Assembly: GCA_019096195.1 (NCBI GenBank)
Contig: JAGTXK010000091.1
Coordinates: forward strand, 744,001 to 808,000
Length of the DNA: 64,000 nt
Source: Boletus sp. NGJ
Taxonomy: Eukaryota > Basidiomycota > Agaricomycetes > Boletales > Boletaceae
Direction of reading: 5' to 3'
Shown: positions 11,760-47,146 of the stretch, in pieces
Position numbering within the stretch: position 1 is the first letter of the stretch
How the letters are laid out: each line of letters begins with the position of its first letter
Position numbers and translations under genes: made by a program
Notes under the pieces: generated by a model
Told to the model about the DNA's origin: nothing
The model's input: only the letters and a program-made list of their open reading frames with translations
The model's database searches: none

Positions 11760-12777
11760 ATGCAAGTCGTCGTTGATATGTCGGCGTTGACACTCGAAGT
11801 CACGCCATATCGTTCTCCCTTTGACGACGGGGACGCCGACCTCACTCTCCACGCCTCAGACGGCGCACGGTTCGCTGTTCACAAGTTATTATTGACCATG
11901 TCTTCACCTATGCTGAAGCGTTGTCTGATGGTGGGATCCTCTTCACCTTCTCCCGCTTTTGAGGGATTGGTCGTGAGACAGGAGGGAGGACGGGACACTA
12001 TCGACCTTGTCGAAGATAGTGTGACGACTGAGAGGGTTCTCCAGTATTGCTATCCCTTTCCCAACCCCATCCTCGGGAATCTCGACGACATCCAACCCGT
12101 GCTGGAGATGATGAGGAAGTTTGGGATGAAGGGCATCATGGACCGGGTGCGGAGTCTACTAGTCCAGCCTTCGTTCCTAGAGGAAGAACCGCTGCGCGTC
12201 TTCGCCATCGCCTACCGCTTCGGGTTCGAAGCCGAAACGCGCTTGGCAGCCCGACACACGCTGCGCTCCCCCATGTTCGGTCCGTACGTCAAGGAGCTAG
12301 AGCACATACCGGCTTCGGTGTACCACAAACTCCTTCAGTACCATCGCAAGTGCAGCGTGGCAGCGTGCTCGCTCACGTCCGACTTTTCGTGGTTCCCCGG
12401 CTTCGCTTCGCGCTGGGTGTGGTTTCAGTGTGATGACTGTGTCCACCACCCGCTGTCGTGGCCGCTCGCAGACGGGAAGATTTACGAGGTGAACGCTTGG
12501 TTCATCGAGTATATGGAACGCACGCGGGAGGTACTTCGGGAGCGGCCGTGTGCCAAGGTGGTCACCGACCCCATGCTTATCGTAGAGGCACTGGAAACTG
12601 CCGCTCCCTGCCATACCTGTCGACCAGCAGCATATCTGGATCTGAGCGCCTTCATTGCGGACCACTTCACGACGGAAGTGGAGAAGGCGACGGAAGGGGT
12701 GCGTGTTCCAGTGACCTTGTCTCCGTTTGTCTCAGAACTCAACTTTGTTTCAGGTAGAACTCGATATACCTTTCTAG
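11760..12777 (+). CDS. BTB/POZ protein, family member A
   Basis: Two exons: 11760-12698 and 12754-12777, giving 320 residues. The BTB fold begins near residue 23 (DDGDADLTLHASDGARFAVH, then KLLLTMSSPM). It is followed by a helical region with FLEEEPLRVFAIAYRFGFEA, the signature shared by all copies in this window. The C-terminal third carries a Pro-Cys pair (RERPCAKVV) and CxxC (PCHTCRPA). The last exon adds only VELDIPF. BTB domains form dimers and often act as Cullin-3 adaptors, but no function is known for this fungal group. It stands 8 kb away from the other copies and is the most diverged. A GTG-initiated or TTG-initiated longer form is unlikely. Confidence 0.85.
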
Positions 12778-20648: not shown

Positions 20649-21673
20649 TCAGTAAGGTTTAATCTCCAGGTGGATCTGATGGAATAGTTTAATAGTGGAT
20701 GTCAACTTCGAATCAAGGCACATACCTCAGATATAATATCGTTTATCGGTACAGCAAGATCCTTTGCATACTCCTCCATCCTCCTCGGTGCTCTGTCGCG
20801 GCAGTTCTGACAGCTGCCAGCCTTCCTCACCATACCCTCGATCCACTCCACATTCGTCAACGTTTCTGCACATGGCCGTACTCGCAGCGCATCGATAACA
20901 CTGTCTTGATAGCTCTTCAAAGATAGACGTGGCAGTCCATTCTTCCTGCAGAACTTGCAGTCGAGCGGCGGCAGTGGGAACAACGACCAGAGCCGAACAA
21001 GTTGAGACATGGCTTGCCCACAACTCGCATGGTACTTGACCAAGCGCTGGTAATCTGAACCAGAAATGAAGTCTAGCTCGGCAACATATGCAGGTTCCCA
21101 GATTGCAAAACGCAACATGTACTGCGCAGCGATGTTTGTCTCCACTTCCGCCCTGTAGCGACATGCGATGGCGAACACTCGCATGGGCTCCTCTTCTAGG
21201 AACTCGGGGGCCGTTATCATCTTGACGACGAATTTGCCCACACACTTCATGTCGTACTTGTCAGCAGCGTCGAGGACCGACATGACAATGTCTAGATTTT
21301 CGAGGATGGGGAGCTTGGAGTCATAGACGGGAGAACAGAAACTGAGCAGTTTCCGCAAGACGAAGCTCTTCTCGGCGACAGGTATGACTGGTAGGCCGTA
21401 CTTTGTTTGGTCGGCGGCCTTGTCAAGCGGACAGGGTTGTGGCAATGCAAACATGTTTGCAAAGAAAGGGGACGCTAACGACAGGAGAAGCTTGTAGAAG
21501 CGAAAATCGACATTGTCTGAAGTTCGGAGAATCACGTCTGCATTGGCTCGGTCAAAAGGAGCAGTTGCGTCGACAGGTTCCAGACCCTGAAGTTGCTCGA
21601 GTTCGTCAGCGACGTAGTGCACCAGAGTTTCGAGTTCGGAGTCGAACGGGGAAAGGCGGGGAGATTCAAACAT
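20649..21673 (-). CDS. BTB/POZ protein, family member B
   Basis: Exons 21673-20726 and 20675-20649 give 324 residues. After a 50-residue acidic leader the BTB core reads NADVILRTSDNVDFRFYKLL and SLASPFFANMF. The helical middle contains FLEEEPMRVFAIACRYRAE. The C-terminal region has CKFCRKN, RVRPCAETL and CQNCRDR, so two CxxC pairs plus the Pro-Cys. The 27-nt last exon encodes IHLEIKPY. The start at 21673 (MFESPRL) is preferred because the longer frame upstream is Pro/Ser-rich and not shared with other copies. It is in tandem with member C, 552 bases away. Confidence 0.85.
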
Positions 21674-22224: not shown

Positions 22225-23195
22225 TTACAATGATATCGCAAGTGGAATCTGCGTGGAACTTTCGGTCACGGGGGCCAACGGCGAACAAGGAGGTATGCAC
22301 TCACGCCTGCAACTGCCTCATCGACTGCCTCCGCAAACCTCTGCACAAAGTCCAACATGTAGGGCTGTGATTTCCGCCGACAAAATGTGCAGCCCCCCGC
22401 CCACTCCAAGGCTTTCTGCATATTTTGATGTACTGCAGCGGCGCAGGGAGTCTCCTGTAATATGGCTAGGGTTTCCTCCATATACTCTGCCCACCACTCC
22501 CGTGCGTATGCCCCGTGCATCAAGTAGCGAGCGTCAGCTCGCTGCGTGCACATACAACAGTTCGTCCACCATTTGAAGAAGCCATAGCTCTCTTTCTGCT
22601 GGAACCAGGCGAGATTGTTCCCAAGCGCCAAGACTGCTTGTACGCATTTTGTGCGGTAAACCGCGAGGTTTCGAAGGTCGCCTTGGCTGATGTACTTCAA
22701 CGTCGTGGGATTCGCGGTCGGTGCCGGTTGGCGCAAGAGGCACGTCGCTGCGGCTCCCGCTTCCGCTTCGTAACGAAAACGGTAGGCGATGGCAAAAACG
22801 TGCAACGTCTCTTTCTCCAGAATTGATGGTTCAAGCAGCGTCCTCCGGACGCTCCGCTCCACCTCTTCCATGCCGTATTTGATGGCCGCCTCCAACACTC
22901 CCTCTACGTCCACCGCATTTTCCAGGCGATGGTCATCGATGGTGGCGGGGTAGCAGAATCTCAGAAGCATATCCAGCACCCGACTATTTTCGGTAACTGG
23001 AATCACTTCGAGGCCATTGTGCATTTCCTCGTGTGCACTGCGCGCTTGCGGCTGGGGAAGGTCGAACATAGAGTCGAAGAAGGGTGATGCAAGGGCCAGC
23101 AAACAACGATACACTCGAAAATAAACGTCGTCAGACGAACGGAGGACAATGTCCGCCCTGTTGGAGTTGAATGGAGCTGCGGCGTCTCTACACAT
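22225..23195 (-). CDS. BTB/POZ protein, family member C
   Basis: Exons 23195-22305 and 22248-22225 give 304 residues. It starts almost directly at the BTB core (APFNSNRADIVLRSSDDVYF). The shared middle helix reads LEKETLHVFAIAYRFRYEAE. The C-terminal part has a CxC pair (CCMCTQR), ETPCAAAV and CTFCRRK. The last exon encodes IPLAISL, which keeps the alternating hydrophobic pattern of the other copies but has lost the acidic residues. Function unknown; see the family finding. Confidence 0.83.
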
Positions 23196-24093: not shown

Positions 24094-25045
24094 CTATTCG
24101 TCCCCCTCATCTTCACTTTTGAAGACAACTTCCAGTAATTGGCTGCTAGAACCAACATCTGAGTATCGGTGTGTTCGTTGTCTCTTGACGAACTGTGATG
24201 CTTGCTCGTCTTGGCGATGCGTGTTGTTCTGCAAGCGAGACTTGGGTAGAGCACGTTTTGGTCTGGGCGGATTCGGGTTCAAATCCTCGAGAGACACCGG
24301 GTGCTCTTCTACTTTAGGGTGGATCTCGCGACTAGTTTCCAAGTTCTGGCTATTCCGACGACTGAGACTTTGAGACGGCATTGCGTTGCACATGTTGCAC
24401 CCACTGTCGTTGTCAGGAGCATGGGGTTGGTTTCACCGTGAACCTAGCAAGTAGTGCTCACCGTGACTGAGTATCCCAGTATCTCTTCTTCAAAGAATGA
24501 TATTTCTTGCGTAGATCAGCCGCTTCCTGTCGTGCTTCTTCCCCTTGTTCGATGATGGTGTGTTTTTCTGATGCCAAGTTTTCGAGCGTATACTTGTAAT
24601 CTGCGCAGCGTTCGTGCAGACGCTCATTCTCTTTGGCGAAAGTCTCGAGACGTTGTGTCAAAGCATCGATTTCCGCTGTCATTGCCGCGATGGAAGGGAC
24701 GTCCATATATATTTTGCGTACGGAAGGCAAGATAAAATCATGATATTTTTGAGGAACGAATAAAAAGTCAGGTGTTGCTGAGAAAAAAGTCAGCCTTGTT
24801 GTGGATGTGATATATATAAATAAACCAAAACCTATGTGGAATGATTTGCGACAGATAGGACAGGCGGACCTGAGTGCGTCTGCCCCAGAACTGATGTGGC
24901 CCCGTAGGCATCGTTCGCAGTGGACATGGCCTTTCAGACCAGGTGAGTTGTGGTGGTGCCATGGCACAACCAGGATGCAACACATACCACATGGGATAGA
25001 AACTGGATTCCGTAGCGCGTCCAGGCAAATGCCACACTCGGCCAT
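24094..25045 (-). CDS. RING finger / coiled-coil protein
   Basis: Four exons (25045-24988, 24930-24832, 24777-24462, 24403-24094) give 260 residues. The N-terminus is a complete C3HC4 RING: ECGICLDALRNP, PCGHVHCERC (split by intron 1) and CPICRKSF, so an E3 ubiquitin ligase activity is likely. A coiled coil follows (about residues 80-150, DALTQRLETFAKENERLHER), then a basic, disordered tail ending in a Lys-Ser-Glu-Asp-Glu-Gly-Asp-Glu acidic tip. A gene of the same plan lies at 38636-39959. Its promoter is shared with the divergent coiled-coil gene at 25313. Confidence 0.83.
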
Positions 25046-25101
25046 TCTCGACTCTTGGATGGACGAGATCAAGCTGCGCCCGAAACGTGACTATCCCGTG
25101 G

Positions 25102-31289: not shown

Positions 31290-32422
31290 TTAACGTCGCT
31301 TCTTGCCTTTTTTCGGATCCGACTGGATTTTGTTGCTTGGTACAGATAAATCTAAATCCAGCCTGATCTATCGCTCAAAAATGTCAGATTCTCCCCAGAA
31401 ACCTCCGTACCGGTATCCTACTAGCAACTCCAACTCACCTGAGAAACCTCTTCCTCCACTTTCCTTGTCAAGAGTTCAGAAAAGTCGCGCATTCCCTCTG
31501 TGATTCTGCTAGAGCAACTTGCGCAGTTGAGATCTTTAACGCTCTGCACGGTCTTTGCTGCGAGACTCGCCACAGTCGCCCCGCACGGCTTTTCCCATAG
31601 TACCGTAAACATTTCTTTCATGAAGTCCTCCCACCATTGGAATGAGTAGCTCTCAAACAACTTGTATCGAGGTGTAAGCGATCTTGGGCACGAACACGAA
31701 GGACTACCATTGCTTTGTGGAAGATGTGTAAAAATGTTAGTGTTTGGTGGTGGTGTTCCGGTGGTGGATCTGCCAGAAATCCATACACAAGCTTGGCTGG
31801 TTCTATAATGGGATTTGATCCATGATACATCGCCCCTCAGAGCATATACGGCATCGCCGCATTCTCGGTGATAGTTGAGCAAGGCGAGAAGGTCAGATGC
31901 TGTGATGAGATTGATCTCTTTGAACCAAGAAGGAAGGAGTGGCTGCGTCAATGTATATTTTGCGGCGAGCAGCGTCTCTTCCTGCATCTGCCTTTGGCGT
32001 GCGAGTGCAAAACAGCGTAGAGGCTCAGCCTCGAGGACCTTGGGGTTGGAGAACGTACGGGCGACCCTCTTCTCGATCACGTCGAGAGAATATTTTTTGG
32101 CAGCTTGAAGAACGTCGAGGACATCCTCCAGCACTTCGAGGTTGGGATCGTCTGCGAGTGTGCATGGATAGCAAAAACGGAGGAGGGCATCGAGGGTCTT
32201 GCTGTCTTCCGTCACAGGAACGACAATGAGACCATCCTTGATCTCCTGATCCTCGCTTCCTTGGGCAGGTTGAGGAATGCCAAAGAGGGTTTCGAAGAAC
32301 GAGGATGAGAGAGAGAGGAAGAGTTTGAAGACACGAAAATCGATGTTGTCCGACGAACGCAAGATGACATCCGCCTTGGCGTGATCGAAAGGCGCAGCGG
32401 CGTAGGCAGAGTCGCTGGACAT
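31290..32422 (-). CDS. BTB/POZ protein, family member D
   Basis: Exons 32422-31439 and 31367-31290 give 353 residues. The BTB core reads FDHAKADVILRSSDNIDFRV and LSLSSSFFETLFGIPQP. The shared middle has LEAEPLRCFALARQRQMQEE. The C-terminal third has SCSCPRS, EKPCGATV and CASCSSR. The last exon is longer than in its relatives: it begins IRLDLDL in the place where others have VELKLEF and goes on to SDPKKGKKRR, a basic tail that could act as a nuclear signal. A TATAAAT box lies at about 32556-32562, some 135 bases before the ATG, as in members E and F. Confidence 0.85.
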
Positions 32423-33194: not shown

Positions 33195-34205
33195 TCAAAA
33201 GTCCAACTCTAACTCGATCTATTAAGAAAACCGTCAGGCTCTCTGAGGAATCTCTGTGGGACGATTTACCTGAGAAACTATCTTCTCTATTTTCCTCACA
33301 AATAAATCTGAAAAGTCGCGCATCTCTTCGGCGACCTTTGGGGCGCAACCTCGACAACTTCCCGCTTTCACGTTCCGCACTGCCTTCTCCGAGCAAGCTT
33401 GCACAGTTGCTTTGCACGGCTTGTGTTGCAGTTTTGGGAAGGCCTCCTCCATGAAGTCAACCCACCATTGGGGTGGATTCATGTTGAATAGCACGTAACT
33501 GGACATATCTGCTCGTGGACACCTACAATGGCGTTCATTATATGAACTGTCATAATGAGACAGCCAGGTGCAGGCTAGTAAGTTTGTGTAGTGTGATGTG
33601 ATCCAGGATAGATCAAACTTCAGCGCATATACGGCATCACCACATCTACGGTGGTAGGTGAGCAGAGAGAGTAGATCAGCCGCAGTGATCAGCTCGATCT
33701 CCTGGAACCATGACGGGACGAGTGGCTGCGTCAACGTGTATCTTGCAGCGAGCAGAGTCTCCGCCCGCAGGCGTCCTCTATGCGCTATCGCAAAGCATCG
33801 CAAAGGCTCTGCCTCGAGGATTTTTGGGTTTGAGATCGCCTGGCGAGCTTTGATTTCGATGGCATCGAGAGAATACTTCCTAGCTGCCTCGAGAACACCC
33901 GCAGCAACCTTTAATACCTCTAACTTGGGATCATCCGCCAATGTGCATGGATAGCAGAAACGGAGGAGGGAATCGACGGTCTTGCTGTCTTCCGTTACGG
34001 GAATGACAACAAGGCCGTCCTTGATCTCCTGATGGTCGCTTTCTTGGGCGGGTTGAGGGATGTCAAAGAGGGTTTCGAAGAATGGGGATGCAAGAGAGAG
34101 GAAGAGTTTGAAGATGCGAAAATCGATGTTGTCCGACGAACGCAAGATGACATCCGCTTTGGGATGGTCAAAGGGTGCAACAGCATAGGCAGAGTCACCA
34201 GACAT
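33195..34205 (-). CDS. BTB/POZ protein, family member E
   Basis: Exons 34205-33270 and 33218-33195 give 319 residues. The BTB core starts at residue 12 (DHPKADVILRSSDNIDFRIF). The middle third (33621-33897) is identical base for base to member F, including silent sites, while both sides differ. The C-terminal part has HCRCPRA, HKPCKATV and CRGCAPK; the last exon encodes IELELDF. The ATG at 34205 matches the start of D and F; an upstream in-frame ATG at 34229 could add eight residues. It is head to head with F, 1.4 kb apart. Confidence 0.88.
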
Positions 34206-34644
34206 TGTTGCAGATATGTTGGCTGACATTATCAACTGAAGCAGGACTGCGACGCGAGGGCTCACTGGAGTGATGTATAGGAGACAAACTAAGGAAGAAA
34301 GCTGGATTCTTCCGGATTCAAATCACAATTTATACTCCATAGACCCCTAATCCGCGTGTATGTGAGGATTGAATTCAAGGAGTATACGCCCCTAAAGAAC
34401 CATGCGTGGCAGGAAACAATGTTAATGGTCAGATGGGAACGAAATGGGAAAAGTCCGTGCATTCATACTGCGGACAAGAAGTCCTATGCGAAAGCGAGGA
34501 GTGTTTGCTCTGCTCTCGGTGTGACCACTGGCACGAGGAATAGAAGACGAAAAGCTTGGTGTTGCATAGTAGCGTTGGAGCACCCTCAGTAGTGGCATTG
34601 GGAGCCTTGCATATTGCATATATTACCTTGCTTGCAAGGTCTCT

Positions 34645-34795
34645 GAACCATGGCAGGAGCCACAAACCAGTGTCCAAATGGTCAAAGAACGATTTTGTTC
34701 TATAGTACTGCGAATTCGTAATTCGACAGAACTTCCATGCAAATTTTCAGTACGACAGTCATCCAATTTGCAGTTTTGACTAACCGGCCTTGGTC
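34645..34795 (+). repeat. Left arm of 151-bp inverted repeat
   Basis: Matches the reverse complement of 35015-35165 with one difference by eye (a TTTTG/TTTCG change near the inner end). A weaker, gapped match continues inward for about 30 bases on each side. The loop is 219 bases. No target-site duplication is obvious. Confidence 0.9.
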
Positions 34796-35014
34796 CATGC
34801 AGCAGGCTAGTGGCAGAAGAACCAACTGCCGTTCTTCAACGTTCAACCCTGGCCTGCCTATGTGGTAGGTATAGCTCCGGATTAACTATTTGAAGCGGTT
34901 CAGGTTAATCGTTGGTCAACATACACTCGCGTGGAAGGCGAACCATCGACATATTTTCAAGGCAAGCGACTCATTCGTTTCTTCTCAGTCCTGCCACTAA
35001 CCTGCCGTGCGCGA

Positions 35015-35165
35015 GACCAAGGCCGGTTAGTCGAAACTGCAAATTGGATGACTGTCGTACTGAAAATTTGCATGGAAGTTCTGTCGAATTACGAATTCGC
35101 AGTACTATAGAACAAAATCGTTCTTTGACCATTTGGACACTGGTTTGTGGCTCCTGCCATGGTTC
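35015..35165 (-). repeat. Right arm of 151-bp inverted repeat
   Basis: Partner of 34645-34795. Together the arms could fold into a long hairpin in single-stranded DNA or, if transcribed, into double-stranded RNA. Confidence 0.9.
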
Positions 35166-35479
35166 TCTATCGGGCGTAAACTCCATATCTTTGGTATCCT
35201 TTACCCTCTGCAGAAATCACCCTATCCACACTTTTGTAAACAAGAAAGTCACGGTCTTAAGTCTTCCCAAGGGAAGCGACCTGATAACTGGTCAGTCGAC
35301 GAGTCCAAATTTTTTTCCCTTGTGCGTCGCAAATCATCACAGCGTGCCAGTATATGCTCGCATTCTGGGAGAAAGCTGCAAGGACTCGGAACTATAAACG
35401 GCACACTACCCGAGCTGCTCCAGACCGATCTGTCGTTACTAGAACCAAAAACGCACACACGGGTTGAGGGTCCATGGAG

Positions 35480-35486
35480 TATAAAT
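35480..35486 (+). promoter_or_regulatory. TATA box of BTB gene F
   Basis: TATAAAT, 121 bases upstream of the ATG at 35607. The same box at a like distance is present upstream of members D and E. Confidence 0.5.
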
Positions 35487-35606
35487 TTATGATTTGAATC
35501 AGGATCCCGTTTTCTTCCTCAACTTGTCTCCCCCACATTACTCTAGTGAGCCCTCGCGTTGTAGCCCTGCTTCAGATACTAATGTAGTCAACAGATATCT
35601 GCAACA

Positions 35607-36624
35607 ATGTCTGATGACTCTTCTTATGCCGCTACGCCCTTCGACCATTCCAAAGCGGATGTCATCCTGCGTTCGTCGGACAACATCGATTTTCGCGTCT
35701 TCAAACTCTTCCTCTCTCTTGCATCCCCATTCTTTGAAACCCTCTTTGATATCCCTCAACCTGCCCAAGAAAGCGACAATCAGGAGATCAAGGACGGCCT
35801 TGTTGTTGTTCCCATAAGCGAGGACAGCAAGACCCTTGATGCCCTCCTCCGCTTCTGCTATCCATGCACATTGGCGGACGATCCCAAGTTAGAGGTGTTG
35901 AAGGATGCTATGGATGTTCTCGAGGCAGCTAGGAAGTATTCTCTCGATGCCATCGAAATCAAAGCTCGCCAGGCGATCTCAAACCCAAAAATCCTCGAGG
36001 CAGAGCCTTTGCGATGCTTTGCGATAGCGCATAGAGGACGCCTGCGGGCGGAGACTCTGCTCGCTGCAAGATACACGTTGACGCAGCCACTCGTCCCGTC
36101 ATGGTTCCAGGAGATCGAGCTGATCACTGCGGCTGATCTACTCTCTCTGCTCACCTACCACCGTAGATGTGGTGATGCCGTATATGCGCTGGGGCTTGAT
36201 CTATCCTGGATCACATCTCATTACGGGAGCTCAGCGACCTGCTCCTGGTTATCTGGCAATCATCACGATCACGGTCGTAATCGCAACTGTGGGTGTCCCA
36301 GACCAGTTGTGTCTACATACATGCTATTCGACATGAATTCACCTCAATGGTGGGTTGACTTTATGGACAAAACCTTCGAAGCACTGCGAGACAAGCCATG
36401 CAAAGCAACTGTGCAGGCTTCCTCGGAGAAGATAGTGAAGAGCGTAAAAGCGGCAGGTTGTCCAAGTTGCGCCCCGAAGATCGCTGATGGTATGCGCGAC
36501 CTTTTAGATTTATTTACGAGGAAAATAGAGGAGACGGTTTCTCAGGTAAATTATATCTCCCAGGGAGACTCCTCAGTGAGCCTGACAGTTTTCTCGACAG
36601 ATCGAGCTGAAGTTGGAGTTTTAA
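35607..36624 (+). CDS. BTB/POZ protein, family member F
   Basis: Exons 35607-36545 and 36601-36624 give 320 residues. BTB core DHSKADVILRSSDNIDFRVF; shared middle LEAEPLRCFAIAHRGRLRAE; C-terminal NCGCPRP, DKPCKATV and CPSCAPK; last exon IELKLEF. Reading through the 55-base intron also stays open to 36644, but the spliced form is preferred because every member has the same small last exon. The tract 35915-36191 is identical to member E. Confidence 0.88.
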
Positions 36625-36935: not shown

Positions 36936-37652
36936 ATGGCGTCGCACTCGCTGAGCACCTTGGGAACGCTCCAGTCCATGTACAACGTATCATTCAATCA
37001 CTCCGATTCGCCCGATACAACCTTGACGCGAATCACGCGACTGTATGAATCGGTAAGTGCAACATCTAGGTTGCGATGTGATTCGTGATGATGGTGTCCG
37101 AGTGGGGGTCCACGACCTCAATAGGTCGCCTTCTATGCCTCTCGGGTAAGTTAGTATATTAGCTCTGGTACGCCGCTTCAACCTTTGTCTCGCGCTTGTA
37201 CCATACTTACAGTAGGCGCTGACTGGCATATAGCGACTTCATTTCGACTCGTTTCCAGTCATGGCGTGCGCCCCTCCTTGCGCCATCCTTGCGGCCTCGT
37301 TTTTCATGCTCCCCGGCACCGTTTCATCGCTCTGGTAAGTACTCCGTGCCGCCCTTGACGCCTCTTGACTCCTCGGACTCGCCCAAATGGCCTCCCGGCT
37401 CTCTATCTCAACTTAACGGGTTCGTGTTGTCGATGTGCTCCTACCTATCGCCTTCAGAGCACTCTGATCTGCTGTGGAGGTTGCCTCGTAGCACAACTGC
37501 TTCTTCGCCCGGGTCAACTAGCTCACTGGCCGATTTGCTGTGCACGATTCCGTGCCGGCTGGACTGTTGTACATCGCCATGCCGTTTCGTTTCGCTATGG
37601 GGTCATTCTGATGGACTGGGGGTATGGTGCGTTCCGTCGGGGTATCTCCTAA
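36936..37652 (+). CDS. Hypothetical small membrane protein
   Basis: Four exons (36936-37052, 37125-37145, 37234-37334, 37460-37652) with GT-AG introns and matching phases give 143 residues. Exon 2 is 21 nt. Two hydrophobic stretches are visible: CAPPCAILAASFFMLPGTV and, after the third intron, LICCGGCLVAQLLL. The C-terminal half is rich in Cys, Arg and Trp. I recognise no family. The consistent splicing is the main argument that the gene is real; the last codons abut the end of a decayed BTB copy on the other strand, so the 3' part could be a chance fusion. Confidence 0.42.
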
Positions 37653-38155
37653 AAAGCCACGCGCAACGTTGGCTGCTTCCATAACGGGATTCGATCCACG
37701 ACATATCGCTTCTCAATGCATAGACAGCATCCCCGTAACTCTGGTGGTAGGAAAGGAGCGCAAGTAGATCACTTGCACTGATCAGCGTAATCTCTTGGAA
37801 TCATGGAGGGATGAGCGGCTGCGTTAACGTGTACTTTGCAGCAAGCAGGGTTTCCTCATGCGCCTGTCCTCGACGAGCGAGCACGAAGCACCGTAAAGGC
37901 TCGGCGGCAAGAGTTTTGGGATTTAAGAAAGCTCGGGTCTCCGGCTAAGCCACAAGGATAGCAAATTACGGCGAGATCATCTTTAAACTCCTGGTCCTCG
38001 CTTGTTTCAGCAAGTTGAGGGAGTTCAAATAAGTTTCAAAGAACGGGTGCGAGGGAGAGGAATAGCTTGAAGGTACGATGTTATCTGATCAACGCATAGT
38101 TATATATACCTTGGCGTGCTCAATGGGCGCAACGGCATATGTAGAACTGGTCATC
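37653..38155 (-). pseudogene. Decayed BTB-family copy
   Basis: On the minus strand, blocks of the BTB family can be followed in order but not in one frame: a start like MTSSTYAVAPIEHAK, a piece of the BTB core (SDNI, then HPFFET), AEPFTVLR/LRCFVLARRGQAHEE-like sequence, LLAAKYTLTQPL and LLALLSYHQSYGDAVYALR. Part of the BTB core is missing, several frame changes and stops occur, and the C-terminal third with the CxxC motifs is absent. The copy is closest to member D in the middle part. It ends where the hypothetical gene at 36936 begins to be read on the other strand. Confidence 0.75.
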
Positions 38156-38635: not shown

Positions 38636-39959
38636 ATGGACAACCTGCTCGTCGAATGCCCCATCCACCTCGGCGCAGTCCCCATCGCAGATATACTCGT
38701 TTTCAGATGCGGTAGCTCCATGAATCGGCTTCAGTATCTGCTTCCGTGAAGACTAATGAGTTACATTTGCTTTTGTTCGTTAGGGCACGGATTTTGCGAG
38801 CCATGCCTAGGGGGGCACTTTGCTCATAATGGACCGAGTCGTCTTTCATGCCCTACATGTCGCCAGCCCGTCAGACACAAAGAGGCTTTCCCCCTCTTTC
38901 TTTCCCCCGCCCAACCTGGGGCCACCCAGAGTAGTCACCCGACGGCTGAAGCTTCTCACACGCGATTGGTTAGGGAACTCAAGGAAGCAAGGGACGCCCA
39001 CGCAAATTGCTCGGGACGGTTTATTGAATTACAGCATGAAATAGATACTCTCAGACAGGATGGTGCTCACCACAACCAAGCAATACAACATCTTCGTGGT
39101 CGATGCGAGCTGCTAGAAGGACGACTTGCAAAGGAAGCAGACAATTCGGCACGTGCGAGGGAAGAAAGCAATCGAATGCAAGAAGAAGCGACAAAGCTCC
39201 AGGTTGAGAATCACAAGATATCCAAAGCTCTGGAGCAAGCATCAAAGGAGGTACAAGTACAAGTTGAGCGAGTGAAACTGTTTCAAGGTTATATTGAACA
39301 ATATAAACACAAGGTATTCTGTTCGCCATCACTTGTGTTTCTAGACTCACAACCTGTAGTGTAATCTCGAGAAGAAGAAAAGAAAGGCAATTGAGAATGC
39401 CAACCACCACCCACTACCCAGGAAGGAGGATGACTCATTGATGGTGGTTGACGCAAATGCCCCAGACATGCTACATCAAGATGGACCTGACTTTGGATGG
39501 TTAGATGAAGCTTGCAAAGTGAAGGGTGATCAACTCACTATCCCAGGTGATGAAGATTCGGAATTAGAGAAGGAGAGTGAAGACGAGGTTCAGCTCAGTT
39601 ATCCCAATACCAAAGGAAAACAAATGGTAAGCTGGAGTGACCTCGAAGGAGGTGGTGTGCAATACTTACTGCATCTCCAGCAAGATCCGGCACAAGAGCC
39701 ACCCATTCGATTTCGTTCTGATTGGAATCTCGGACTGGAAGCCTTCGCTGGACCATCAGCTGGGATTACTCGGAAACGAAGGCATGGAAGTAGGCAGGTG
39801 GGTGGAAGCAAACTTGTCAAGGTGAAGATGCCACTGGCAGTGGCCCGGGGGGCTGGGAATCACCAGGTGGTCGGAGGCCCGTTGGTCATCGATAGGCATG
39901 GCCATGTCAAAGGCCCTGTTGCCCTAGGCTCTAGGCAAAAGCTCAATTCAAAGAATTGA
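38636..39959 (+). CDS. RING-like / coiled-coil protein
   Basis: Three exons (38636-38711, 38784-39313, 39360-39959) give 401 residues. The N-terminus has the second half of a RING (CGHGFCEPC, then CPTCRQPV). The first ligand pair reads ECPIHLG, that is Cys-x2-His in place of Cys-x2-Cys, so the finger is atypical and its ligase activity uncertain. A coiled coil fills about residues 85-205 (IELQHEIDTLRQDGAHHNQA). Exon 3 gives a basic KKKRKA patch, an acidic stretch, and a Gly/Val/Lys-rich tail ending QKLNSKN. The plan is the same as the gene at 24094-25045, though sequence similarity is low outside the finger. Confidence 0.78.
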
Positions 39960-42277: not shown

Positions 42278-45200
42278 TCAGTACCATCTCCATCTCAACA
42301 CCCTCATCTCGAGTACATCCTCGCCGTCCACAACCATTCTCCCGTCGTCCATGTGGTGTTGAGCGACCTTGATGATGATGGTGTTATTCTTAAAGATAAA
42401 GTCTCCATCGGAGATGTTCGGTCGTAGGACGCGAACGGTGGGCTTTGGGCTTGCAGGCGGACGAGGTTTCGACGACGCATCGGTGTCATTACCCTCCTGG
42501 GATGTGCCAGACTCGGGAGGATCAGTCGTAGCGCCACCCAAAGGCGGTGGGTCATCAGTAACCGTCTTTCGTTCCTCCAAAGTCGGCTCGGAAAGGGAGT
42601 GGTGCGGGGTAACTTGCGTCTTTGAGGTAGCTGGTATTGATGACGTGTTAGCGAGGCGTTCGCGTGGGCCGAGCACTGAAAGTGTGTATCGCGTCTGTCC
42701 TTTGTGCACGTTCCAAGTGATGAGGTAGGTCTCTTTCGAGCTTTCGAGCACAATTCCCCGTCCTGGGTCGTCAACGGAATCCACGTCCATGTCACCGTCC
42801 GCTTGGCTTTCTCGAGCCGCAGCGATCTTCCGACGCTTGGGTGGCGATGGGTTGACTATCGAGCCTTGGTGAAGATGAGGGAAGAGCGCACACTGGACCA
42901 CTTTCGCGTCGTATTTAAACCTGACCTCAGACTGAGAATAAGACGAGAAACGAGTAGGAGAAAGCATACCCAACCCCAGTTTTGCTCTTGCCCCGATCGG
43001 GAACACCAAAGGAGATCGTCATGGCTTGCATCTTCTTCGCTTCCTCGGCGATTGCGGTTACCTCGCTCGATCCCGCCTTCTTTATTTCCATAAAGTCGAC
43101 ATTAAGCCTTCGCCTCTTTGGGGTATTTGTCACATCAAAGAGCGGCGGGGATGGCGGTGGGGGAAGACCAAGAATGTCAACGCGACGCTGTGCATACTCT
43201 GCCAAACGCTGTGCACGGTTGCGAATCCCGAGACCGGGAGCGACGTGTGCCTTGTGCTGACGAGATGCGTTAACCAGCGAATCCATCGGTGATAGGTATA
43301 AAGGGAACAAACCTCGACGACGTCGACACAGATGACCTCGAACGCACTCCCGTCATGGCCCCATCCCCATCCGCAGCTGACACACCCTCTTCCATCGTCT
43401 TCGGCTTCTTCAAAACTCGTCATTCGGCCAGCGCTATCGCCCCTCCCAGCGTTCTCTTCGCCATAAAAGGATTCACCCCATCCACCGATGAAACGGCTCG
43501 CCCAAACACCGCCCGCGTAACCCGGCGGCTGAGGGTCGTTATTCGAGGAAGACGTGGAAGGTACCGAGGAAGCTGGTGGTGGGAGAGGCGTACTGGTGCG
43601 TGTGCGAGGAACACTGGCAGTTCCGTTCGCGTGGCCATTGGTGCTGATGCCATTCATGCCAACGCGACTATCGCTTAACCCGCTTTTGACAGCTCCAGAG
43701 GCCGAAGCCAGCGTAGGCACCAGTGCGAGTACGACACGTATTGTTCGACCTTCCTTCTTTGCTCGAGCGATGCCGCTCCATGTCAATAGGCCAGCGTGCA
43801 CTGCGCATTGGATGACGTCGGAGTCGTCCGTGTAGACACGGCGTCGTGAGAAAGAGTATATGGATGGAGTGAATGGGAAAGGCGGCGGCGGAGGTAAGCC
43901 ACCTCCCCAAAGGCGGAACTTCTGAGGCCTTGCAGGTGGTAGAAAAGATGGTGGAACAAGAACTGTAAGGCGGAGTTCAGTGGGGGTCTGAGTCGCTGCA
44001 GGTGCGGAGGTGGAAGCCAAGGAGCTTGAGCTAGGTCCAGCCTCCGTGGCTATGGCCTCGACTGGCTTGTCCTCCTCAATGATAGGCGTAGGAATCCATT
44101 CCGGGAAATAGTAAGGGAAGGGTGTCCGTGGCCAAACATATGTTCCCAGACCGACAAATGGTTTCTTCTCTCTTTCCTTCCTGGCCCTCGCAAGTTCCTC
44201 GGCACTGGGCACGCGTTCAAGCATCTCCAGCCGCTCGCGTTCGAGTATCTCCAATCTCTCGCGCTCGAGCAGCTCGAAGTTTTCACGTTCCAACCTCCCG
44301 AGACACTCGCGCTCCGCGATATCGAGTCCTCCAAGTCTGTCGCGCTCAAAGAGCTCGCTGAGTTCCCGTTGAAGCATCTCGAAGCGTTCCCTGGTCTCCA
44401 GTCGTTCACGTTCGACTTCTGTGTGCTCTCCCTCGCGGTTTGTGGCATTCGTCGGCTCCCGCTCTCTGTCCACCACACCACACCGCTCGCGTTCGGTGAG
44501 TTCCAATCGCTCCCTCTCTCGGTTTTCGATCGATTCTCGATCGGCTCCAGGTCCAACGGGGCGTTCGTCACGTTCACGCTCGACCATTGGCACGTCGACG
44601 ACCTTTCGATCCTTGTCAAAAGGGCCAACTCCGCTCGCGCTAGCGGCCTCGAGTCCCCTTTCCCGATCTCTCTCCATCGCTTCAAGACGTTCACGCTCTC
44701 TCTCTCGCTCAAATGCCTCTGCCCGTTCACGTTCTACCACGTCAAAGTGGTGAGGTCGTATGGGCATGCGTTCACGATCACCAGGACGTTCCAGAATGAC
44801 CCTTTCACGCTCCAGAACTGAACGTTGTTCGGGAGGTGGGGGGCGTTCCCGTTCGTGCAGGATGCGATCCCTGTCGTTGATGGCTATGCGTTCCCGCTCG
44901 GGGAAGCTTCTGTCCCTCTCCACCATCCGTTCCCGCTCGAGCCTATCCCGTTCGAAAAAGGCACGATCCCTATCTGAGGGGACCATGCGATCGCGTTCGA
45001 ACAATGCCCTGTCTCGTTCGGCTATTGCGCGCTCCCTGTCAGTAGGGGCGATGCGCTCGTTGTCACGTTCTGGGCCCATACGTTCGCGGTCGGGGATGGG
45101 CATCCTCTCGCGGTATGGTCGACGGTCCAACTCGCGCTCGCGTTCTCTGTCTCGTTCCCAAGCGAGTTGCCGTTCGCGGTCGTTCATGAGCTGGATTTCG

Positions 45201-47146
45201 CGTTCCCGGGTGTAATCGTGGGGTGGAGGTGGAGGGTGGTGTGATCCGGGGGCACCTGGTCCGGTCGTACTCGTGCTAGGAAGGGGTGGTACGCCTGCCC
45301 CGCCAATGTTCATCCCATGAGGAGATGGCATGCGGGAGTGTGTGTGACGTTCGCGGTCTCTCTCCCTCTCGCGAGGCGGCATCCCTGGACCGGTTTCCCC
45401 CTCGCGATGTAATCCAGCGACGCGGTCACGTTCACGCTGGATATGCGTCTCCCGCTCCCGCATGTCACGTTCTCGTTGTGACATTCCCTCCATCTCCCTA
45501 GACATGAGCTCATTCATCCTCTCCCTTTCCCTTTGCACGGAAATGTCCCGCTGACCTGGCGGAATCACGTCGTGTTCGCGTTGGGAATGGTCCCTCGAGG
45601 TTTCTCTTATCCGTTGGCGGTCTCGCTCTCTTGTATAAGCAGGGCGGTCATGATCGCGGTGGTATCCGTATTCGGGGTCGCGCGTCGGATCCAGGTCTTT
45701 CTCGCGTCCCAAGTCACGTGGACGACCACCCACGCTCATCATCCCCCGCTCCCGTTCGCGGGCTGGATCCCACTCGGGAGGATGGGTCTGGAATTGGCCC
45801 TGTCCGGGAAGTAGGGGTGGAGCTTGTCTGTGTGGATGGGAGAAGGGAGGTGGTGGATGTATGCGGTCCCTGTCGTGGTGAGGAAGCGGGGGGATGCGGT
45901 CTCGCTCGTTGGGAGGTTGTATGCGGTCATGTGGAGGAGGACCTATGGGCATGCGATGAGTTGATCCCGGAGGTGACTGCTGTACTTGGGCTGTTCGCAG
46001 GGGGGGAGGTGGCTGGGCAGGGGGAGCACGAGCGAGCGGAGACGCTCTATGCATGTGGTGTGGAGGGCGGTCGCGGTCGTGAGGAGAAGGAATTGGACGA
46101 TCATGGGGAGATGTGAGGGACCGCTCATGAGGAGATGCAAGGGAACGATCACGTGGAGATGGGAGGGCCCTTTCGCGCTCTCGCTCTCTGTCGAAAGGGC
46201 CACCCACGACGCGGTCTCTGGCTGCAAGACGGATGATTTCCATATCCTCGTGCTGACGTTCACGTTCACGTTCCCAATCCTTTTCTCTATCTCTCCCGGA
46301 TTTGAAACTGGTGCCAGGGCTGGTGTTGGGATGTGCTTGGGGCTGTGCCTGCACAGGAGGTCTGGCCATTTGTTCATCGGCAGTGCGGTTATCGAGGATG
46401 AGGACGCCGGCAGCAGTGGTCAACAAAGGCTTTGAAGGGGGGGAGTGGGCGGCTGTGGGGGTGAATGAACAAAGAAACAAGGGCGTGACGAAGCGGACGC
46501 ACCGATATTTGAAGGCGTCGAGCTACCGCTTGCATGTCCACGCTGTACGACAGGACTGCGGTCTAAAAGGGATGAGGGAAAAAAAAAGACGCGCCACGCC
46601 AAGCAAAGTGAATATGATCAGCGCCCATGCAGAGGGGGCAGTGGGAGGGGGAAGCCTACCTGAGCCGGGCATAGCCGGTTTGATCTGAGCTGGTTGCTGG
46701 TGGTGGGTCGTGCGATGGTGTGACGGCCCCAAATTGGAGACAGCGAGAGGGGAGGACCCCTGACGCGGTGCCGGAGGACCCCAGGAAGTGTGAGGGTGCA
46801 CGTGAGGTGGAGGCGCGGAGGGAGATGGATGTTGCAAGCTTGCCATGGCGGGGGTGGAATCGATTGGAGAGGGCTGGATCTGTGAAGGCGGACGCTGGCT
46901 ACGGTGCATCGGGGTCGGGTCGGGTCGAAAGGGGGGGTGGGACGGGTAGTATGGGCTGGGCTGGAGGGGATAGGGAGGTTGTGTGGGCTGTGAAGAATGG
47001 GTGTGTTGGTGTGACTGGGGGGAGACTGAGGCGGAGGGGAGCGATGCTGGTGTTGATTGGGACGGGGGCGGCGAGTCGTGTTGCAACGTAGCCGGCCGTC
47101 TCCGGTGCTGTGAGGGAGAGTCTTGGAGGAGATCAGAGACATTCAT
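42278..47146 (-). CDS. RXT3-like subunit of the Rpd3 histone deacetylase complex
   Basis: Five exons (47146-46660, 46562-46503, 46452-43313, 43256-42975, 42931-42278) give 1,540 residues, all in phase. Residues 1-180 are Pro/Ser/His/Gln rich. From about residue 195 to 880 the protein is dominated by Arg-Glu-Arg-Asp repeats (for example RERERERALPSPRDRSL and ERERLEILERERLEMLERV). The Rxt3 domain follows: VGLGTYVWPRTPFPYYFPEW, LTVLVPPSFLPP, RRVYTDDSDVIQCAVHAG, VVLALVP and CGWGWGHDGSAFEVICVDVV. In yeast Rxt3 belongs to Rpd3L, which deacetylates promoter histones. The C-terminal two exons are less conserved, with a KRRRLNVDF basic patch. The repeat length is far beyond what the domain needs. Confidence 0.86.

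Follow-up and report, generated by a model that had tools for sequence, protein, structure and literature searches.

How do two neighbouring genes that have clearly diverged come to share 277 consecutive bases without a single difference? The question arises from a 64,000-nucleotide stretch of the Boletus sp. NGJ genome (hereafter the window), in which genes E and F, both encoding BTB-domain proteins, are divergently oriented, head-to-head, with first exons that are 88% identical in inverted order (Table 1). We propose, with a probability of about 93%, that E and F are diverged back-to-back BTB paralogues that have undergone a recent ectopic conversion of about 277 bases, most likely from E into F.

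Table 1. Positions of the BTB-family genes, the identical tract and the second inverted pair in the window.
Feature	Position	Strand	Description
Gene E, first exon	33270..34205	-	312-codon open frame; BTB-domain protein; Pfam BTB 38.8 bits
Gene F, first exon	35607..36545	+	313-codon open frame; BTB-domain protein; Pfam BTB 45.2 bits
Identical tract, E copy (likely donor)	33621..33897	-	277/277 identical to F
Identical tract, F copy (likely recipient)	35915..36191	+	277/277 identical to E
Non-coding inverted pair (near-identical), E-side copy	34645..34795	-	132 identical, 1 mismatch, 18 identical
Non-coding inverted pair (near-identical), F-side copy	35015..35165	+	1 mismatch in 151 against the E side
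Gene D, first exon	31439..32422	-	Pfam BTB 40.9 bits; more distant family member
Decayed local copy I	37633..38150 (ends approximate)	-	blastn match to E/F; stops and missing pieces
More distant BTB-family member	11814-12701	+	34-44% identity to F (range over three members)
More distant BTB-family member	21002-21568	-	34-44% identity to F (range over three members)
More distant BTB-family member	22299-23183	-	34-44% identity to F (range over three members)

Genes D, E and F all exceed the curated Pfam cut-off of 20.5 bits for the BTB/POZ domain (PF00651), and the first exon of E is probably followed by a GT-AG intron and a short last exon, a call made by eye from splice-like sequence common to the copies. 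Judged by their sequences, the BTB members in the window are a local family cluster. Close family members, G and H, are found on other contigs (C81 and C109, respectively). A protein search of the genome (32.8 Mb in 141 contigs, a single assembly) returned at least 13 matching places among 14 scored candidates, some of which are pieces of one gene; F itself, G, E, H and D account for five of the 13 places, with 65-100% identity across most of the protein. D served as the outgroup. Copy I, a decayed BTB-family copy beside gene F that is matched in two pieces with one TGA in each, was omitted from the codon, tree and permutation analyses and included in the 15-pair comparison of exact runs.

Open frames resembling RING-finger proteins with a coiled coil flank the BTB genes on either side, at 24458-25090 (minus strand, with sub-threshold Pfam RING matches) and at 38750-39364 (plus strand, recognized by eye). 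A 1130-codon open frame at 43130-46522 (minus strand) is rich in Arg-Glu-Arg-Asp repeats and matches the histone-deacetylation protein Rxt3 below threshold.

The first-pass annotation had described a sharply bounded 277-bp identity, silent sites included, in two diverged, head-to-head BTB genes, and each element of this description holds. The inverted copies agree at 277 of 277 bases, at exactly the coordinates first given, whereas the first exons of E and F, both with Pfam BTB matches, are 17% different over 659 aligned sites outside the tract. At fourfold sites, E and F differ at 0 of 51 positions in the tract, 5 of 37 upstream and 8 of 27 downstream. Synonymous divergence (dS) along the exon runs from 0.27 in the BTB-encoding 5′ part through 0 in the tract to 0.40 in the C-terminal 3′ part, in a calculation that cut the tract at whole codons and so included one E-F mismatch just beyond the 277 bases (Nd 1). 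The edges are abrupt. Mismatches begin on the left at 33898, followed by 33901, 33902, 33907, 33912, 33915 and 33933, and on the right at 33620, followed by 33619 and 33617; beyond these, 22 bases (33595-33616) are alike in E, F and G and give way to E-F blocks of 62-81% identity. The two sides are unequal, as E-F identity is about 90% upstream of the tract and drops to about 75% downstream.

A run of this length is far from what chance would produce. At the 10.4% E-F divergence of the adjoining 5′ exon part, its probability is about 6 × 10^-14, and when D, E, F, G, H and I are compared in all 15 pairings within the aligned region, the longest exact run after the 277 bases of E-F is 46 (E-G). 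The tract also stands out in a column-shuffle permutation test of the GENECONV type. It spans 108 consecutive polymorphic columns (F 35915-36188; 410 columns, five genes), matched in none of 5000 shuffles; its third-position run, 71 of 207 columns, is likewise of a length reached in 0 of 5000, and in a three-sequence version the run of 24 was equalled in none of 20000. The runs of some other pairs are mildly long, being reached over all columns by 13 (D-E), 25 (D-G), 122 (E-H) and 222 (F-H) of 5000 shuffles and, at third positions, by 145 of 5000 (F-G), and older or smaller exchanges between other family pairs are possible.

Outside the tract, the sister of E is not its neighbour F but G. Exon trees built outside the tract group E with G (support 98/97) and reject both an E+F clade (p-AU 0.018) and an F+G clade (p-AU 0.014), whereas the tract itself groups E with F (support 91/88), with E+G (p-AU 0.078) and F+G (p-AU 0.077) disfavoured there, neither being rejected at 0.05. 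The outside signal comes mainly from the 3′ part (97/96; E+F p-AU 0.018), and the 5′ exon part alone barely splits E+G from E+F (support 44/39, p-AU 0.42). Individual sites give a similar picture: agreement of E and G is the commonest class of variable site outside the tract, with 20 of 45 in the 5′ part and 46 of 102 in the 3′ part, and at 24 sites within the tract E and F are the same and G is different. On these alignments, the tract and the rest of the exon give conflicting gene trees.

The relationship between E and G extends into flanking DNA. Upstream, the two have about 240 bases in common (about 34377-34615, 75.6% identity) and, downstream, short pieces reaching about 32825; a match comparison found no counterpart of this shared flanking DNA at F. 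The upstream regions of E and G are clearly homologous (local score 270, shuffled mean 74), and no homology was seen between those of G and F (68.5 compared with 68.8 for shuffled sequence). Homology between the upstream regions of E (34357-34644) and F (35166-35454) was tested and not seen, the score of 63.5 falling below the shuffled mean of 72.6, and the F upstream piece (35166-35480) had no other match in the genome. These two upstream intervals are nearly the same in length (about 285-289 bases), and each separates the second inverted pair from its gene.

The same observations bear on the alternatives. The E and F copies might truly differ, with assembly or polishing having given both the same consensus letters. 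We consider this very unlikely, as the 10% divergence beside the tract would be more than read placement or polishing could easily confuse, E has either site states or flanking DNA in common with G to the left and to the right of the tract, so that the copies look in phase, and the contig is 1.16 Mb long; these points outweigh, in our judgement, the facts that both copies are known from one assembly and that E and F lie inverted a few kilobases apart, an arrangement that can trouble assemblers. Still less probable is that the whole gene was recently duplicated in inverted orientation and then changed very rapidly outside the tract. Such a duplication would fit the inverted order and the overall identity of the first exons, but it sits poorly with silent divergence of 0.27-0.40 outside against 0 inside, with upstream DNA that E shares with G and that was not found by F, and with the position of E nearer to G than to F, unless the E-G relation were itself a product of conversion. 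The choice of recent gene conversion over whole-gene duplication, made in the first-pass annotation, is therefore supported. Strong constraint at the DNA level, from an overlapping function, has a negligible probability even though the protein segment encoded by the tract is conserved among the six family members of the window, since fourfold sites in the tract differ from E/F at 8 of 44 positions in G, 18 of 41 in H and 21 of 37 in D, the member that had been singled out for comparison. With whole-gene duplication and DNA-level constraint both unfit, a converted patch remains.

For this conversion we envisage the following course. E and F would form an imperfect inverted repeat of two diverged members of a small family; a break in one copy would be repaired with the other copy as template, and ectopic non-crossover gene conversion would thereby have overwritten about 277 bases, most likely those of F with those of E. 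The direction of copying was probably from E to F, without net inversion. In a post hoc test on rounded counts, the synonymous distance of the tract to G (12/70) is like that between E and G outside it (25/143; p 1.0) and smaller than that between F and G outside it (48/146; Fisher p 0.016), which favours E as the donor. Substitutions found in E only, however, crowd the left edge of the tract, with 5 in 36 bases compared with 7 in 272 (at the right edge, 5 in 36 compared with 26 in 312), a pattern easier to reconcile with E having been the repaired copy. Because E matches G on both sides, the ends of E are in phase and no net inversion has occurred since E and G split; a net crossover inversion was accordingly set aside, and the event would have been a non-crossover repair or have involved an even number of crossovers. 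The absence of any change in 277 bases puts the 95% upper bound on E-F divergence since the event at about 1.1% for all sites and 4.1% for silent sites, well below the surrounding silent divergence.

The non-coding DNA between E and F looks homogenized too. The second inverted pair, of 151 bp, is flanked on its centre side by diverged homologous DNA (score reached by 3 of 5000 shuffles) and on its gene side by DNA in which no homology was detected (3395 of 5000). No further copy of the pair was found in the genome, and a repeated mobile element is unsupported, the three genome matches being the locus itself. As non-coding DNA of the age of the E-F split should be visibly diverged, the pair points to recent copying or recent local duplication, and we infer that it was homogenized by the same kind of event as the tract. 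A more speculative extension, which we think improbable, is that the back-to-back pair is a small, self-templating palindrome in which the non-coding inverted repeat separating E and F would repeatedly promote repair from arm to arm, keeping the core helical segment and the upstream DNA alike and leaving the C-terminal, possibly target-recognizing part free to diversify.

In protein terms, the tract corresponds to codons 103-195 of F, which in a predicted model form the helices after the BTB domain (mean pLDDT 65.9 with six window sequences as input; 63-86 in the post-BTB helix blocks). The E and F proteins carry the same post-BTB helical segment, and their C-terminal parts are still different. 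The top-ranked Foldseek matches are the BTB adaptors SPOP, KEAP1 and KBTBD2, which likewise have a BTB fold followed by helices; these matches, named from among the best 50 of 160, are weak (best E 0.004, query TM-score 0.26), and 0 of the 160 reach E 0.001. Unlike these adaptors, the E/F family shows BTB alone in Pfam at E values up to 0.1, with MATH, Kelch and BACK not found; the tract on its own, in which the BACK domain of CUL3 substrate adaptors was sought, is without a Pfam match, and a profile search of solved structures gave 0 matches at E values up to 0.01. BTB/POZ proteins are reported to be among the ubiquitination genes whose orthogroups are specific to mushroom-forming fungi with complex multicellularity (PMC8893723). 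From BTB family membership, we would guess at a role as ubiquitin-ligase adaptors.

Among E, F and G, the dN/dS ratio is 0.18-0.25 in the BTB part against 0.43-1.18 in the C-terminal part (F 36192-36545). For the latter, it is 1.18 for E-G, 0.62 for E-F and 0.43 for F-G, compared with 0.22-0.31 for pairs that include D or H. In these three genes the C-terminal part evolves much faster at the protein level than the BTB part, which could reflect relaxed constraint or diversifying selection. Positive selection on this part was considered and not upheld, as the sole ratio above 1, that of E-G, is non-significant (p 0.39).

Conversion between paralogues is a well-known process, of which the E/F tract is a clear new instance. 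Interlocus tracts average 200-300 bp in many yeast studies, are mostly refitted to about 100 bp in a review and range overall from 50 to several hundred bases, according to that review, which also cautions that a region of this sort does not necessarily reflect just one conversion event (PMC3924818). A short, fully identical patch between diverged paralogues, silent sites included, is the same in kind as the cases described there, and 277 bases lie within the published range; what differs here is that the copies are inverted and that a third paralogue serves as a clear external reference. In Tigriopus californicus, mosaic conversion is reported to homogenize one portion of the GOT1 paralogue pair in a similar way, with other portions strongly diverged (PMC3728101); population data are available for that pair, whereas E and F come from one genome with one coding and one non-coding tract. 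Meiotic gene conversion has been directly measured in a fungus (PMC10294615). Among the matches listed in our literature search, judged by titles and abstract openings, we found none on this locus or on conversion in a fungal BTB family.

The locus offers a clean natural case of recent conversion between inverted paralogues, in which a dispersed sister, G, keeps the unconverted version. It also illustrates that whole-gene trees from such clusters can put copies in the wrong place. Should repeated tracts turn up in related strains, the locus would be well suited to studying how inverted repeats are homogenized part by part.
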